This document shows, piece after piece, positions 1 to 35,371 of a stretch of DNA of 35,371 nucleotides. The notes under the pieces are model-generated. The model was not told the DNA's origin and did not search any database. It worked only from the letters and a program-made list of their open reading frames with translations. A program made the position numbers and the translations under genes. The first letter of the stretch is position 1. Every line of letters starts with the position of its first letter. The stretch is from positions 1 to 35,371 of IMG/VR virus record IMGVR_UViG_3300008266_001277; one strand, written 5' to 3'. This DNA comes from a virus.

Positions 1-97
1 CGTCGCGGCCAAGCTGGTCTCCGGCGAGTACAAGGACATGGTGGTCAAGCCGATCCAGCGGAACGGCCAGGCCAACGGCACGACCGTCTATGTCAAG
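1..97. repeat. Terminal direct repeat, left copy (circular overlap)
   Basis: These 97 bases are identical to positions 35275-35371. They lie inside the coat-protein gene, and joining the two copies restores one uninterrupted reading frame. The sequence is therefore a circular map of about 35,274 bp. An overlap of this size inside a structural gene looks like an assembler overlap from a circular or circularly permuted molecule, as expected for headful packaging, rather than a biological terminal repeat. Confidence 0.95.
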
Positions 98-20459: not shown

Positions 20460-21103
20460 GAAGTTGGACGCCGGAAGAGCTGACACGCTTGCAAGAGCTT
20501 GTCGGGCTAGGGTGGGCGCGGCAACGCATCGCCGCCGACCTCGACCGCAGCGTGGACGCCGTGAAGGCACGCATAAACCACGGCGGGTTCGACAAGCCGC
20601 CCATGCGCGCCGTAACATGGTGGACGCCGGAGGAGGAGGCGAAGCTCGAAGAGCTTTGGCGGATCGGCCACTCTCTCACCGAGATCGGGCGCATCCTCGG
20701 CAAGGGGCGCGGTGCTATCGCCGGGGCCTGCGCGCGACGGGGGTTGAAACGTGACGCGGCAAGCCGGGGGCTCATTAACTCCGTCGCATCATCCGTCCGC
20801 TCCGAACGGTCGCCCGCCCGCAAGCGCGTCGCCAACTGGTCAATCTCCAAGGTCCCCGCCCCCGCCGACGTAGCGCGTTACGTCCCCAAGACACACGCCG
20901 TACCGCCGACCGCCAAGCATTGGCTAGAACGCGCGTTCGGTGAATGTGCGTTTCCTGTAGACGGCGCCGGGGTTGATCTGATTTCGTGTTGCCGCAAGGG
21001 CTGGCGCACCACACCGGACGCCGCCGCCTATTGCGACGAACACCGCGCCGTCATGTTCGGCGCACCGCGTAGCGATCTGGAAGGGTTGGAGAAGGTGGTA
21101 TGA
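20456..21103 (+). CDS. GcrA-like cell-cycle regulator with two HTH repeats
   Basis: 215 residues from GTG 20456 (GTGA overlap). Bacterial GcrA binds methylated GANTC promoters together with sigma factor. Here two SANT/HTH-like repeats are seen: SWTPEELTRLQELVGLGWAR (3-22, ending near 45) and WWTPEEEAKLEELWRIGHSL (55-74, ending with GAIAGACARRGLKR near 99). The second matches GcrA's W-T-x-E-x-x-x-x-L-x-x-L-W start. The C-terminal part (CAFP at 164-167, SCCRKG at 177-182, AYCDEH at 191-196) matches GcrA's Cys/His module that contacts sigma-70. The extra N-terminal repeat is unusual. It is coupled to the adjacent DNA methyltransferase gene, which strengthens the reading. Confidence 0.78.
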   Translation: MRSWTPEELTRLQELVGLGWARQRIAADLDRSVDAVKARINHGGFDKPPMRAVTWWTPEEEAKLEELWRIGHSLTEIGRILGKGRGAIAGACARRGLKRDAASRGLINSVASSVRSERSPARKRVANWSISKVPAPADVARYVPKTHAVPPTAKHWLERAFGECAFPVDGAGVDLISCCRKGWRTTPDAAAYCDEHRAVMFGAPRSDLEGLEKVV

Positions 21104-21795
21104 GCTACCAGCGCAAGGAGGTGATCGGGGATGCGACGCTGTATCTGGGCGACTGCCGGGACATCCTTCCGACGTTGGGGAAGGTTGACGCGGTTGTGAC
21201 GGACCCTCCGTTCGGGATGGCGTTCCAAAGCAATTACCGGACGGTGCAGCACGCGGAAATCGCCAACGACGGAACCGATGAACTGCTGCGGTGGGCATGC
21301 GAAATACCGGCCCGCCACTCCAGCTATGTCTTCTGCAGGTGGGACAATATCGCCGCACTTCCGAAGCCTAAGAGCCTCGTGACATGGGTTAAGAATAACT
21401 GGTCAATGGGCGACCTGGAGCACGAGCACGCGCGGCAGACTGAGGTCGCGTGCTTCTATCCAGGCCCCGAGCACAGGTGGCCTAGAGGGCGACCGACCGA
21501 CGTTGTGGAGTGTCCCCGCACCGGGAACGTCTACCACCCTACCGAGAAGCCTGTGGCGCTTATGTGGGCGATTGTAGGCTGGACGGAGGGTGTCGTTTTC
21601 GACCCGTTCGCAGGAAGCGGAACAACCGGGGTCGCCTGCGTGCAGCGGGGGCGCGCGTTCATCGGCTGCGAGATTGATCCGGCGCATTTCGAGACGGCCT
21701 GCCGCCGCATCGCCAAGGCTTACGAACAGCCCCGGCTCTTTGACGAGCCACCCCCAAAGCCAGTGCAACCTTCTCTGTTAGGGGACCTGTCGTGA
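21100..21795 (+). CDS. DNA adenine methyltransferase, beta-type motif order
   Basis: 231 residues, ATGA overlap with the GcrA-like gene. The catalytic motif VVTDPPFGM (DPPF 35-38) precedes the SAM-binding motif VFDPFAGSGTTGVACVQRGR (FAGSGTT 170-176), the order of beta-class N6-adenine (or N4-cytosine) methylases. VYHPTEKPVALM (about 145-155) is the usual motif between them. DPPF rather than SPPY favours adenine. It lacks the long C-terminal domain of CcrM, so the target is not GANTC by inspection alone. Possible roles are protection from host restriction and, with the GcrA-like protein, altered host transcription. Confidence 0.85.
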   Translation: MSYQRKEVIGDATLYLGDCRDILPTLGKVDAVVTDPPFGMAFQSNYRTVQHAEIANDGTDELLRWACEIPARHSSYVFCRWDNIAALPKPKSLVTWVKNNWSMGDLEHEHARQTEVACFYPGPEHRWPRGRPTDVVECPRTGNVYHPTEKPVALMWAIVGWTEGVVFDPFAGSGTTGVACVQRGRAFIGCEIDPAHFETACRRIAKAYEQPRLFDEPPPKPVQPSLLGDLS

Positions 21796-22265
21796 CCATC
21801 CTGGCAATAGACCCCGGCCTCTCGGGCGCGCTTGCGTTCTTGAAGCCGTCCGGCAATCTCACCGTCATCGACATCCCGACGCTCCAGCTAAAGAAGCGCG
21901 TGATCGACGAATATGCGCTCGCGCGAATCGTTGACGAGTGGGCGATTGAGGTGCGCGAGGTTTGGCTGGAGCAAGTCGGCGTGCGGCCGGGCGAAGGCGC
22001 GGTCGGGGCGTTCACGTTCGGGCGCGGCTATGGGCTGATACGCGGTATCTGCGCCGCCAACTTTTTGACGATCCACGACGTAACACCGCAGGTCTGGAAG
22101 CGCGCCTTAGGCGTACCAGCGGAAAAGGATGGCGCACGCGCCGTCGCGTCCCGCTACTTCCCGCGCTACGCAGGCGAGTGGGCGCGCGTGAAGGATGACG
22201 GGCGGGCCGAAGCCGCGTTGATCGCGCTTTATGGTTCAAGGCAGATGCAAGCGAGGGCCGCGTGA
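21792..22265 (+). CDS. RuvC-like Holliday junction resolvase
   Basis: 157 residues from GTG 21792 (GTGA overlap). The RNase H-like fold starts MTILAIDPGLSGA (D7). VWLEQVGVRPG gives the second acid (E60). VKDDGRAEAALIALYG supplies the last acidic residues (D135/D136, E140), matching the RuvC catalytic set. GRGYGLIRGI and TIHDVTPQVWKRALG are typical linker strands. It resolves branched DNA before packaging. The size is close to the usual 155-175 residues. Confidence 0.85.
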   Translation: MTILAIDPGLSGALAFLKPSGNLTVIDIPTLQLKKRVIDEYALARIVDEWAIEVREVWLEQVGVRPGEGAVGAFTFGRGYGLIRGICAANFLTIHDVTPQVWKRALGVPAEKDGARAVASRYFPRYAGEWARVKDDGRAEAALIALYGSRQMQARAA

Positions 22266-22567
22266 CCCAATCCCTCACCGGCGCCGGCTGGTATTTCTCC
22301 GCGTCTCACCGCGACCCGATCCGCAAGGAGTTGCACGGCCACTCCTACGAGGTCACCGCCTACTGGCCCTCGGAGCCGCCGCGCGATGCGATGGTCCTGC
22401 AATGGACCCTGCGCGACGTGTTGAAGGGCTTCGACCATGTGACGCTGCCCGACGAAATGACCCGCGCCGAAACGCTGGCCCGCGCCATCGGATCACTGAT
22501 CGACGGATGCGTTCGCGTGGACATCGCCCGGCCTTCGGAGCGCCTGCGTTGCGAGGTCTGGTTGTGA
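22262..22567 (+). CDS. QueD-like 6-carboxytetrahydropterin synthase homologue
   Basis: 101 residues, GTGA overlap. The zinc ligands of the PTPS/QueD fold are visible: FSASHRD (H16) and ELHGHSYEV (H25, H27). GFDHVTLPDEMTRAETLARA is the catalytic Asp-His region, and a RPSERLRCEVWL end resembles the terminal Glu-bearing strand. The catalytic Cys normally four residues before HGH in QueD is not present (Arg at 21), so activity may differ. QueD makes an intermediate of preQ0, the precursor of 7-deazaguanine bases. The next gene looks like the enzyme that inserts such bases into DNA. Confidence 0.75.
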   Translation: MTQSLTGAGWYFSASHRDPIRKELHGHSYEVTAYWPSEPPRDAMVLQWTLRDVLKGFDHVTLPDEMTRAETLARAIGSLIDGCVRVDIARPSERLRCEVWL

Positions 22568-23286
22568 TGACGGTCTGTTACCACGGAACGCCGATCACGC
22601 CACAAAGCTCGCTCTTGAAGCTCGCCGGGCGTCACTTCTGCGTCTCGTATTTCAACCGGACAAAGACCAGCCTCCCGCTGATCGAGGGCATCGCGTCCAG
22701 CCTCATGCTCGATAACGGCGCGTTCTCGGCATGGCAGGCGGGCGTTGATCTTAGCGATGCCTACTGGTCCAGCTATTTCGATTGGTGCGACCCGCTGCTG
22801 GACCGCCCGACGACGTGGGCCGTCATCCCCGACGCCATCGCCTCGGGAACCCAGGAGCAAGACCGCCTCATCCGGCTATGGCCGCACGGCGACCGTGGAG
22901 CGCCCGTCTATCACCTGACCGAAGACTTCATGCAGCCGTTGTCGCGGTTGGTGCGGCTGACACAGGAATGGCCGCGCGTCTGCATCGGCTGGGCGCACCC
23001 ACCGTCAAAACACCCGATCAACGGTGTCGCGTTTGAGCGCGCGATGGATGCGCTTTGGAACGAGCTGGCGAGGCATCATAGCCGCACGCCGGTAGTCCAT
23101 ATGTTCCGGGGGATGCAACTCGTCCGGTCGCGGTGGCCGTTTGCGTCCGTCGATTCAACCGACGTTGCCCGCAATCACAACCGCCCGCAGAACACGCCCG
23201 AAGTCATGGCCGCCCGTTGGGATGCGGCGCAATGCCCGGCGCGATGGGAGCAGGCGCCCTCTCCTTTAGAATTGGATTTTGCATGA
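22567..23286 (+). CDS. DpdA-like transglycosylase for 7-deazaguanine in DNA
   Basis: 239 residues from ATG 22567 (TGATG). The frame open upstream from 22231 runs through the QueD-like gene and is rejected. Key segments are SLMLDNGAFSAWQ (D49), comparable to the D-S-G-G-F/Y substrate-binding loop of tRNA-guanine transglycosylases, DWCDPLL...TWAVIPDAI, VCIGWAHPP, VVHMFRGM and FASVDSTDVARNHN (D196/D199), comparable to the second catalytic Asp loop (DC-x-x-x-T-R-N-A-R). This fits the short phage DpdA families that exchange guanine for a preQ0-type base in DNA. Adjacency to a QueD-like gene is the strongest support. The start overlaps the QueD stop; the end overlaps the exonuclease start. Confidence 0.7.
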   Translation: MTVCYHGTPITPQSSLLKLAGRHFCVSYFNRTKTSLPLIEGIASSLMLDNGAFSAWQAGVDLSDAYWSSYFDWCDPLLDRPTTWAVIPDAIASGTQEQDRLIRLWPHGDRGAPVYHLTEDFMQPLSRLVRLTQEWPRVCIGWAHPPSKHPINGVAFERAMDALWNELARHHSRTPVVHMFRGMQLVRSRWPFASVDSTDVARNHNRPQNTPEVMAARWDAAQCPARWEQAPSPLELDFA

Positions 23287-24044
23287 AGAACGCATTTGAA
23301 ACACACAACATCGGCCACCTGTCGCCGTCGTCCATTAACCTCTGGCTTAACGCGCCGTCGCTGTGGGTGATGGAGAAGCTCCTGGGCCACCGTGGGGGTA
23401 TGGGCGCCGCCGCTCACCGTGGCACGGCGACAGAGGCGGGCGTCAGCGCCGGGCTGTTCGACCACGACCTGACGCTTGACGACTGCGTCGCCGTCGCCTT
23501 GCCCGTCTATGACCGGCTTACGGCGCTGTCAGGCGACCCTAAGCGCGAAACCGAGCGCGGGGTTATCCCCGGCATGGTCAAGCAGGGGCTCGCCCTGCGT
23601 ACGCACGGCGTCCCGATCCGGCCCAACCAGGGCGACCAGCACAAGGTCGAAACGTCGCTTGATGGCGTCGGCGTGCCGGTGATCGGCTATCTCGATTGGA
23701 TGTTCGCCGATGAGATTCTAGACCTCAAGACCACCCTTCGGGTTCCCTCCGCCATGAGCGAGACGCATCTGCGCCAGGCGTCCGTCTACAAGCGGGCGCA
23801 CCTGGATAAGCGCGTGCGGTTCGTTTACGTCAGCGACAAGAAGTCGGAAACGCACACGCTCACGCGCGAGCAATACGACGCCGCCATTGTCCAGCTTACG
23901 GGCGCGGCTTTGCGGTTGCAGAGATTTCTTGCAATCTCGACCGACCCGCGCGAACTTGCCGCCATTGTTCCGCACTCGTCGGATAGCTTTTATTTCAACG
24001 ACCCGGCGACGCGCGCCAAGTCGGTTGAAGTGTTCGGTTACTGA
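23283..24044 (+). CDS. PD-(D/E)XK exonuclease (RecB/Cas4-like)
   Basis: 253 residues, ATGA overlap. HLSPSSINLWLNAPSLW is the usual opening of PDDEXK_1 nucleases. RGTATEAG (R46, E51) is the helix that follows, and GYLDWMFADEILDLKTTLRV gives D138, D147 and K149 of the active site. RQASVYKR supplies the Q-x-x-x-Y motif. It is probably a recombination or host-DNA-degrading exonuclease working with the SSB-like protein encoded nearby. There is no iron-sulphur Cys cluster, unlike true Cas4. Confidence 0.82.
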   Translation: MKNAFETHNIGHLSPSSINLWLNAPSLWVMEKLLGHRGGMGAAAHRGTATEAGVSAGLFDHDLTLDDCVAVALPVYDRLTALSGDPKRETERGVIPGMVKQGLALRTHGVPIRPNQGDQHKVETSLDGVGVPVIGYLDWMFADEILDLKTTLRVPSAMSETHLRQASVYKRAHLDKRVRFVYVSDKKSETHTLTREQYDAAIVQLTGAALRLQRFLAISTDPRELAAIVPHSSDSFYFNDPATRAKSVEVFGY

Positions 24045-34352: not shown

Positions 34353-35174
34353 ATGTCAGAAGCCAACACCGCGCCGGAAGGCGTGACCGAAGATGCGTCC
34401 GTTGCCGATCAGGTTACGGAACAAGCCCCCGCTCAGGGTGACGAGCAATTCGGGGACGATGCCCCCGCCGAAACCGCAGAAGGCGCGGGCGAAAAGCCCA
34501 AAGCCAAGAAAACGGTTCAAGACCGCATCGACGAACTGACCCGCAAGCAACGGGACGCCGAACGCGAGGCGGAGTTCTGGAGGGCGAAAGCCACCCAGCC
34601 GCAAGAGCGCCAGCGCGACCCCGAGCCCCAGGTCGATGAAGACCCGGAACCAAGCCCCTACGCTTACGAGCATGGGGAAAACGACGTGCGCTTTATTCGG
34701 GCGCAGGCCGCTTGGGAAGCCCGGCAGGAAGTCACGCGCCAGTTCAGCGAGCGCGCCCAACGTGAGGCCGAAGTGGCCGAACGTCGGCGGTTCAACGAGC
34801 GGGCCGAGACCTTCGCCGGTCAGACCCCGGACTTCTATGACGTGGTCGGTCACAACTACGAGCGCGCCGCGTCTGTGATGACGGAAGTCATGCAGCACGC
34901 CGCTCGCGCAGCCGATGAAGCGCCGGCCCTGGCGTATCACATGGCGAAACACCCGGCAGAGGCGCGTCGCATCGCGGCACTCAATCCCTACGCCCAAGCC
35001 GTTGAGATCGGAAAACTCGCAGCCCGGTTGTCGGCGCCCACGGCGTCACGACCGTCCCCCAAAACCGCCACCGACGCCCCGGAACCACCCCCGCAAGCGC
35101 GGGGGACCGGAGGCCGCTTCCAAGTCGCGCCCGATACGGACGACTTCGCGACCTTCGAGAAAACCTACGGCTAG
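34353..35174 (+). CDS. Scaffolding protein
   Basis: 273 residues. An acidic, disordered N-terminus (DEQFGDDAPAETAEGAGEKP) is followed by long charged helices (VQDRIDELTRKQRDAEREAE, VTRQFSERAQREAEVAERRR). A C-terminal coat-binding end reads TGGRFQVAPDTDDFATFEKT. Scaffold proteins direct coat assembly and then leave the head. The highly charged helical character and the place between portal and coat make the call firm. P22 scaffold is 303 residues. Confidence 0.85.
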   Translation: MSEANTAPEGVTEDASVADQVTEQAPAQGDEQFGDDAPAETAEGAGEKPKAKKTVQDRIDELTRKQRDAEREAEFWRAKATQPQERQRDPEPQVDEDPEPSPYAYEHGENDVRFIRAQAAWEARQEVTRQFSERAQREAEVAERRRFNERAETFAGQTPDFYDVVGHNYERAASVMTEVMQHAARAADEAPALAYHMAKHPAEARRIAALNPYAQAVEIGKLAARLSAPTASRPSPKTATDAPEPPPQARGTGGRFQVAPDTDDFATFEKTYG

Positions 35175-35206: not shown

Positions 35207-35371
35207 GTGTCTAACTCCCTCCTTTCCCCCAAGGTCTACGCCAACGTCGGCCTTAAACTCCTGAAGAACAACCTCGTCGCGGCCAAGCTGGTCTCCGGCG
35301 AGTACAAGGACATGGTGGTCAAGCCGATCCAGCGGAACGGCCAGGCCAACGGCACGACCGTCTATGTCAAG
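35207..35371 (+). CDS. Major capsid protein, 5' part
   Basis: GTG 35207 with AAGGAAC upstream opens MSNSLLSPKVYANVGLKLLK and runs off the window. The same frame continues at position 2 on the left side, giving 433 residues in all. The last 97 bases duplicate the left end. Confidence 0.88.
   Translation, partial: MSNSLLSPKVYANVGLKLLKNNLVAAKLVSGEYKDMVVKPIQRNGQANGTTVYVK
35275..35371. repeat. Terminal direct repeat, right copy (circular overlap)
   Basis: Identical to positions 1-97; see that entry. Dropping one copy gives the circular unit of about 35,274 bp. Confidence 0.95.

Follow-up and report, generated by a model that had tools for sequence, protein, structure and literature searches.

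The DNA analysed is a viral stretch of 35,371 nucleotides (hereafter the window). It starts and ends with an identical run of 97 bases, and the genes for the scaffold (34353-35174) and coat (from 38) proteins join across its two ends; the window therefore holds the whole phage genome, which is 35,274 bp long. The phage genome has a G+C content of 64.5%, contains no tRNA genes and encodes matches to coat, portal, scaffold, head closure and DNA ejection protein families, a set which fits a P22-like head. The P22-like affiliation proposed in an earlier interpretation made from the letters alone (the sequence-only reading) thus holds for the head genes, while no close DNA relative of bases 1-25000 was identified among 50,697 phage records.

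A series of five overlapping genes, arranged head to tail, encodes a DNA methyltransferase, a Holliday junction resolvase-like protein, a QueD-like protein, a DpdA protein and an exonuclease/Cas4-like protein (Table 1). The junctions on both sides of the resolvase-like gene consist of GTGA overlaps, followed by a TGATG overlap between the queD-like gene and dpdA and an ATGA overlap between dpdA and the exonuclease-like gene. Based on these overlapping junctions, the five genes can fairly be inferred to form a single transcription unit, and the operon in which the sequence-only reading had coupled the pair to the methyltransferase and the resolvase is a reasonable assumption. That reading had also placed both open reading frames of the pair correctly. 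The queD-like frame runs from a GTG at 22262 to a TGA ending at 22567, whereas the listed dpdA frame starts further upstream than its natural start, the ATG at 22567, and closes with the TGA at 23286.

Table 1. Features of the phage genome (positions are those of the window).
Feature	Position	Strand	Evidence
Direct terminal repeat, left copy, 97 bp	1..97	.	Repeat comparison of the ends
DNA methyltransferase (N6/N4 type), first in the overlapping run	21100..21795	+	Pfam N6_N4_Mtase, E=1.2e-17; phrog_67
Holliday junction resolvase-like protein	21792..22265	+	phrog_1770, E=4.2e-30; 4-base overlaps with methyltransferase and queD-like genes
QueD-like (PTPS/T-fold) protein, 101 aa	22262..22567	+	Zn ligands H16, H25, H27; D58-H59 dyad; R21; R90
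DpdA (TGT-fold DNA-guanine transglycosylase family), 239 aa	22567..23286	+	D49/D196 pair; H178
Exonuclease/Cas4-like protein	23283..24044	+	phrog_10230, E=4.5e-14; phrog_1706 and phrog_69, E about 1e-4
Direct terminal repeat, right copy, 97 bp	35275..35371	.	

The downstream member of the pair is assigned to DpdA, which we regard as settled by its sequence and residues. It matches phrog_887 (annotated as 'queuine tRNA-ribosyltransferase') with E=3.8e-38, a family to which the experimentally validated 9g DpdA (E=2e-98) and the DpdA encoded by Salmonella phage 7-11 (E=7e-74) belong as well. An hhalign comparison with 9g DpdA yielded P=1.5e-8. When the alignment was enlarged, 9g DpdA came first among 29 control proteins, of which E. 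coli TGT was not significant. The identity to 7-11 DpdA is 30% (hhalign profile E=3e-32). The loops LMLDNGAFSAW and VDSTDVARN, proposed earlier as the two Asp regions of the active site, align with their 9g counterparts as expected: LDNGAFS (D49) pairs with LDSGAFS and VDSTD (D196) with CDSSS, and the two Asp residues are found in 51 and 50 of 52 aligned rows, respectively. H178, which is present in all 52 rows, is the equivalent of 9g His196, a residue of DpdA that is absent in DpdA2 (PMC6884629). No family in Pfam, NCBIfam or PADLOC matched the DpdA protein; as 9g DpdA itself also lacks a Pfam match, the silence of Pfam on phage DpdA does not count as evidence against the assignment. Searches of bacterial genomes with the DpdA protein returned two distant Janthinobacterium loci and nothing else. 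A 1.7-kb record labelled 'Staphylococcus phage' (OR850331.1), which is possibly mislabelled or contaminated, encodes a DpdA as identical to the query as those of Salmonella P22-like phages.

The AlphaFold model of DpdA (pTM 0.78) contains eight strands in the order of a TIM barrel, so that the earlier DpdA/TGT call has strong support from the family profiles, the catalytic residues, the predicted fold and the gene neighbourhood. Sequence searches against solved structures gave no significant match for DpdA or the QueD-like protein. A PDB search with the DpdA model retrieved Cap10, the TGT-family member found in type IV CBASS, as the top and only match at E<=0.001. Matches in BFVD include several phage queuine tRNA-ribosyltransferases and, furthermore, the 464-residue protein R9TGF0 of Vibrio phage nt-1, which may represent the DpdA2 of that phage. 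As Cap10 is a TGT-family enzyme remodelled to bind deazaguanylated protein, the DpdA protein could conceivably target host tRNA or protein instead of phage DNA, for example in counter-defence. We consider this highly improbable: the nearest relatives by sequence are phage DpdAs, of which that of 9g was shown to act on DNA (PMC6884629), methyltransferase, resolvase and exonuclease genes belong to the same overlapping series as this gene, and a single match among solved structures may reflect the fold only. By analogy with 9g, the present DpdA would likewise be active on DNA.

How much modification would result is a separate matter. Among the tested phages that have DpdA alone, the nearest is Salmonella phage 7-11; its DNA contains only traces of dADG (about 0.02% of G, corresponding to about 50 dADG per million nucleotides), while none was found in Orion (PMC6884629); strong modification by the present DpdA is therefore not assured. 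Together with the short length of the protein (239 aa, compared to 317 aa in 9g), these values are consistent with a weakly active or vestigial DpdA in this clade, in which case the pair would be a moron causing little DNA modification. However, D49, D196, H178, H116 and G141 are each conserved in 50 to 52 of 52 divergent sequences, and partner genes are retained across large divergence, which is unexpected for a dead enzyme and makes this explanation quite unlikely.

The upstream member of the pair is firmly a QueD relative by fold, yet not a QueD. The Zn motif noted earlier in the 101-aa protein (H16 and HGH at 25-27) is exact; H16, H25, H27 and H59 are invariant in the family, D58 is nearly so, and E93 is near-invariant. 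The structural model (pLDDT 95) most closely resembles E. coli QueD (TM about 0.8) and other PTPS proteins in the PDB (TM 0.72-0.84, E<=0.001), and E. coli QueD also ranked first in the profile comparison of the QueD-like alignment. While the single protein scored just under the curated cut-off for Pfam PTPS (E=2.8e-4), all 26 relatives matched this family (best 8e-10). This consistent recovery of PTPS, together with the phrog_887 match of DpdA, argues against chance similarity for the pair. Bacterial genomes searched with the QueD-like alignment gave no match, and the sole clear match of the gene in a cultured phage is in Caulobacter phage DMCA.

The active site of the QueD-like protein differs from that of QueD at two positions. 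Cys27 and Glu110 of E. coli QueD, which we take to be the catalytic and the substrate-anchoring residue, respectively, align with R21 and R90. The replacement of the catalytic Cys, which in QueD is found four residues before HGH, by Arg had been noticed before; we found that none of the 26 relatives has this Cys, and that the position is occupied by R, E, G, D, H, Q, S, T or A with no common substitute. The Arg at the position of Glu110 is invariant (26 of 26) and in most relatives is followed by P-x-E (RPxE motif); the near-invariant E93 could fill the role of the lost Glu. PTPS-III, a folate-pathway paralogue, has a Glu in place of the catalytic Cys, a hallmark that does not describe the present family, with R in this phage and mixed residues in its relatives. 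In line with these differences, the NCBIfam QueD equivalog scored 17.9 bits against a cut-off of 89.25. The earlier statement that only QueD is phage-encoded therefore stands for the fold, while the identity as QueD does not. A canonical QueD encoded beside another dpdA (locus L102) has Cys and Glu at both positions, so their loss in the QueD-like family is not an alignment artefact.

Judging from its sequence, the QueD-like protein has consequently most likely lost CPH4 synthase activity, and the earlier caution that it may do something different is strengthened by the family-wide loss of the Cys and the invariant Arg. It would alternatively be conceivable that it still makes CPH4, despite the drift of its active site, and thereby boosts the host preQ0 flux while DpdA inserts preQ0 or ADG. 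The fold, the Zn ligands, the Asp-His dyad and a TSE-type Glu are kept, as this alternative would predict, and a published survey of bacterial dpd islands gives 78% as the share with QueD-family genes (PMC11888242). A loss of the Cys without a single replacement, the exchange of the substrate-anchoring Glu for an invariant Arg and a score far under the QueD equivalog cut-off nevertheless favour repurposing over CPH4 synthesis, and we regard the drifted synthase as rather unlikely.

No genes for FolE, QueE, QueC or a radical-SAM enzyme were detectable in the complete phage genome, which is why any 7-deazaguanine must derive from the host or the medium. This agrees with the earlier suggestion that preQ0 or other steps are contributed by the host. 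We propose that the phage genome encodes a two-gene DNA hypermodification module consisting of DpdA and a repurposed QueD-like partner. In this module, the 7-deazaguanine core would be supplied by the FolE-QueD-QueE(-QueC) pathway of the host, with none made by the phage; the QueD-like protein would tailor a host 7-deazaguanine intermediate and pass the product to DpdA, which would exchange guanine in phage DNA for the 7-deazaguanine base using D49 and D196 as a TGT-type catalytic pair. Phage DNA may thereby be disguised by the base that the pair provides. Sequence, fold or gene context support the DpdA family membership, the QueD fold, the residue changes, the conserved pairing and the lack of detectable FolE, QueE and QueC; the DNA target, the host supply and the QueD-like reaction we infer, and we consider a module of this kind moderately probable. 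The sequence-only reading is thus partly supported: its DpdA/TGT call, the dependence on host precursors and its caution regarding the function of the QueD-like protein were upheld; modification of the phage DNA and a block of restriction are predicted effects.

As for the reaction of the QueD-like protein, an Arg at the position of the substrate-anchoring Glu would suit a carboxylated substrate, which makes CDG the foremost candidate. A specific guess, which we consider doubtful, is that CDG is decarboxylated to plain 7-deazaguanine; a predicted CDG decarboxylase, DpdL, was reportedly named by Cui et al. in 2023. More generally, and still tentatively, Cys-less QueD-like proteins with Arg in place of Glu may constitute a new class of T-fold enzymes that turn a host intermediate such as CDG into a DpdA-preferred base, so that the DNA would carry something other than preQ0, ADG or archaeosine, with DpdA and its partner as a minimal two-gene module.

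The association of the two genes extends beyond the present phage. In scans of close relatives, a dpdA is found beside every QueD-like locus having downstream sequence, at QueD-like identities of 42 to 100%. The DpdA loci in these scans that lack a QueD-like neighbour are either the most distant ones (L013-L016, 41-42% identity) or truncated where the contig stops (L010). In most close relatives nothing lies between the two genes; in L009 (6944-7359) they are separated by a gap of about 410 bases. A wider scan identified 575 DpdA relatives in viral contigs, of which the best 80 were kept. All loci were reduced to 52 non-redundant DpdA sequences, and a QueD-type neighbour was defined as one within 1.5 kb and on the same strand as dpdA. 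Among these 52 loci, 19 have a QueD-type neighbour, 15 a YhhQ/Vut_1 neighbour and 18 neither, as counted on contig fragments of this best-match sample; none has both. QueD-type neighbours are Cys-less or of the same profile in 18 of the 19 cases and canonical in one. YhhQ is a preQ0 transporter, and membership in the YhhQ/Vut_1 family was confirmed for three of the 15 neighbours; the YhhQ-paired loci include L033 (4992-6471), L034 (5001-6205), L085, L091, L101 and L110. Under independent assortment, the chance of zero co-occurrence is 2e-4, or 2e-3 when loci found via QueD are removed, both values being rough as the loci are related. On the DpdA tree, the neighbour labels require at least 13 changes.

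This mutual exclusion also bears on whether the QueD-like protein still synthesizes CPH4, as a QueD-type gene that never occurs beside the same dpdA as YhhQ could be an alternative to that route of precursor supply. Two further neighbourhoods point in the same direction. In the distant loci L068 (5701-7294) and L069 (6339-7339), a QueE-like radical-SAM gene is located beside a Cys-less QueD-like gene, with DpdA adjoining in L068; FolE and QueC are absent from both records, and among all 27 records searched FolE and QueC were found in none and radical SAM in two. The pairing of QueE-like and Cys-less QueD-like genes also fits plain extra precursor synthesis. In L102 (1482-2616), the gene after dpdA encodes the canonical QueD, which has both Cys and Glu, unlike the Cys-less partners at other loci; DpdA and a supply of QueD can therefore occur together. 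Two DpdA-like genes in the same orientation and about 0.7 kb apart were identified on one phage contig (L081, 5550-6239 and 6899-7678).

At residues 13, 35 and 38, the DpdAs of QueD-linked loci differ from those of YhhQ-linked loci, which may mark another base or partner, although with the tree taken into account the independent pairs are too few to tell. QueD-linked DpdAs mostly have Q35 and often L38, whereas those linked to YhhQ have D and R at these positions (14 of 14), a difference that is confounded with ancestry.

A survey from 2019 found YhhQ to be uncorrelated with any group of DpdA phages (PMC6884629); a DpdA-YhhQ module in the present DpdA family therefore goes beyond that result. 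No description of a DpdA/QueD-like or DpdA/YhhQ pair was found in the literature consulted, nor does that literature support plain 7-deazaguanine in phages SH-Ab 15497 or Iggy, a lead which was dropped. The neighbourhoods suggest an answer to the question, posed in 2019, of where DpdA phages without a preQ0 pathway obtain their base, namely, within the present DpdA family, via YhhQ in some and a QueD-like protein in others, with never both beside one dpdA examined. If the two-gene module is correct, a small phage would gain hypermodified DNA with one transglycosylase and one tailoring enzyme while leaving the core synthesis to its host. As a conserved group of QueD relatives without the catalytic machinery of QueD, the QueD-like proteins furthermore provide a test case for new T-fold chemistry, and, given their tie to DpdA, both the base and the chemistry involved are directly approachable in the cultured Caulobacter phage DMCA.

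Compared to known systems, the present DpdA shares phrog_887, the Asp pair, the His196 equivalent and a predicted TIM barrel with DpdA of phage 9g, yet is shorter and is encoded without FolE, QueE, QueC/Gat-QueC or a canonical QueD. Its closest tested homologue, of the same length class, is the singleton DpdA of Salmonella phage 7-11, a type also found in P22-like/lambdoid phages; no preQ0 genes were reported in 7-11, and, unlike the present phage, neither 7-11 nor BTP1 encodes a QueD-like partner in the stretches read. With QueD/PTPS-I (6-carboxytetrahydropterin synthase, COG0720), the QueD-like protein has the T-fold, the Zn His triad and the Asp-His dyad in common, but it differs in the missing catalytic Cys, the Arg in place of Glu110, the RPxE motif and a score under the equivalog cut-off. 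In bacterial dpd islands (dpdA-K), dpdA often has QueD-family neighbours, as in this phage, whereas none of the dpdB-K partners was identified among the genes annotated here. Finally, Cap10 of type IV CBASS, the best PDB match of the DpdA model, shares the TGT-family fold but binds a deazaguanylated protein N-terminus (PMC11996544), whereas the present DpdA is embedded in a neighbourhood of DNA metabolism genes.
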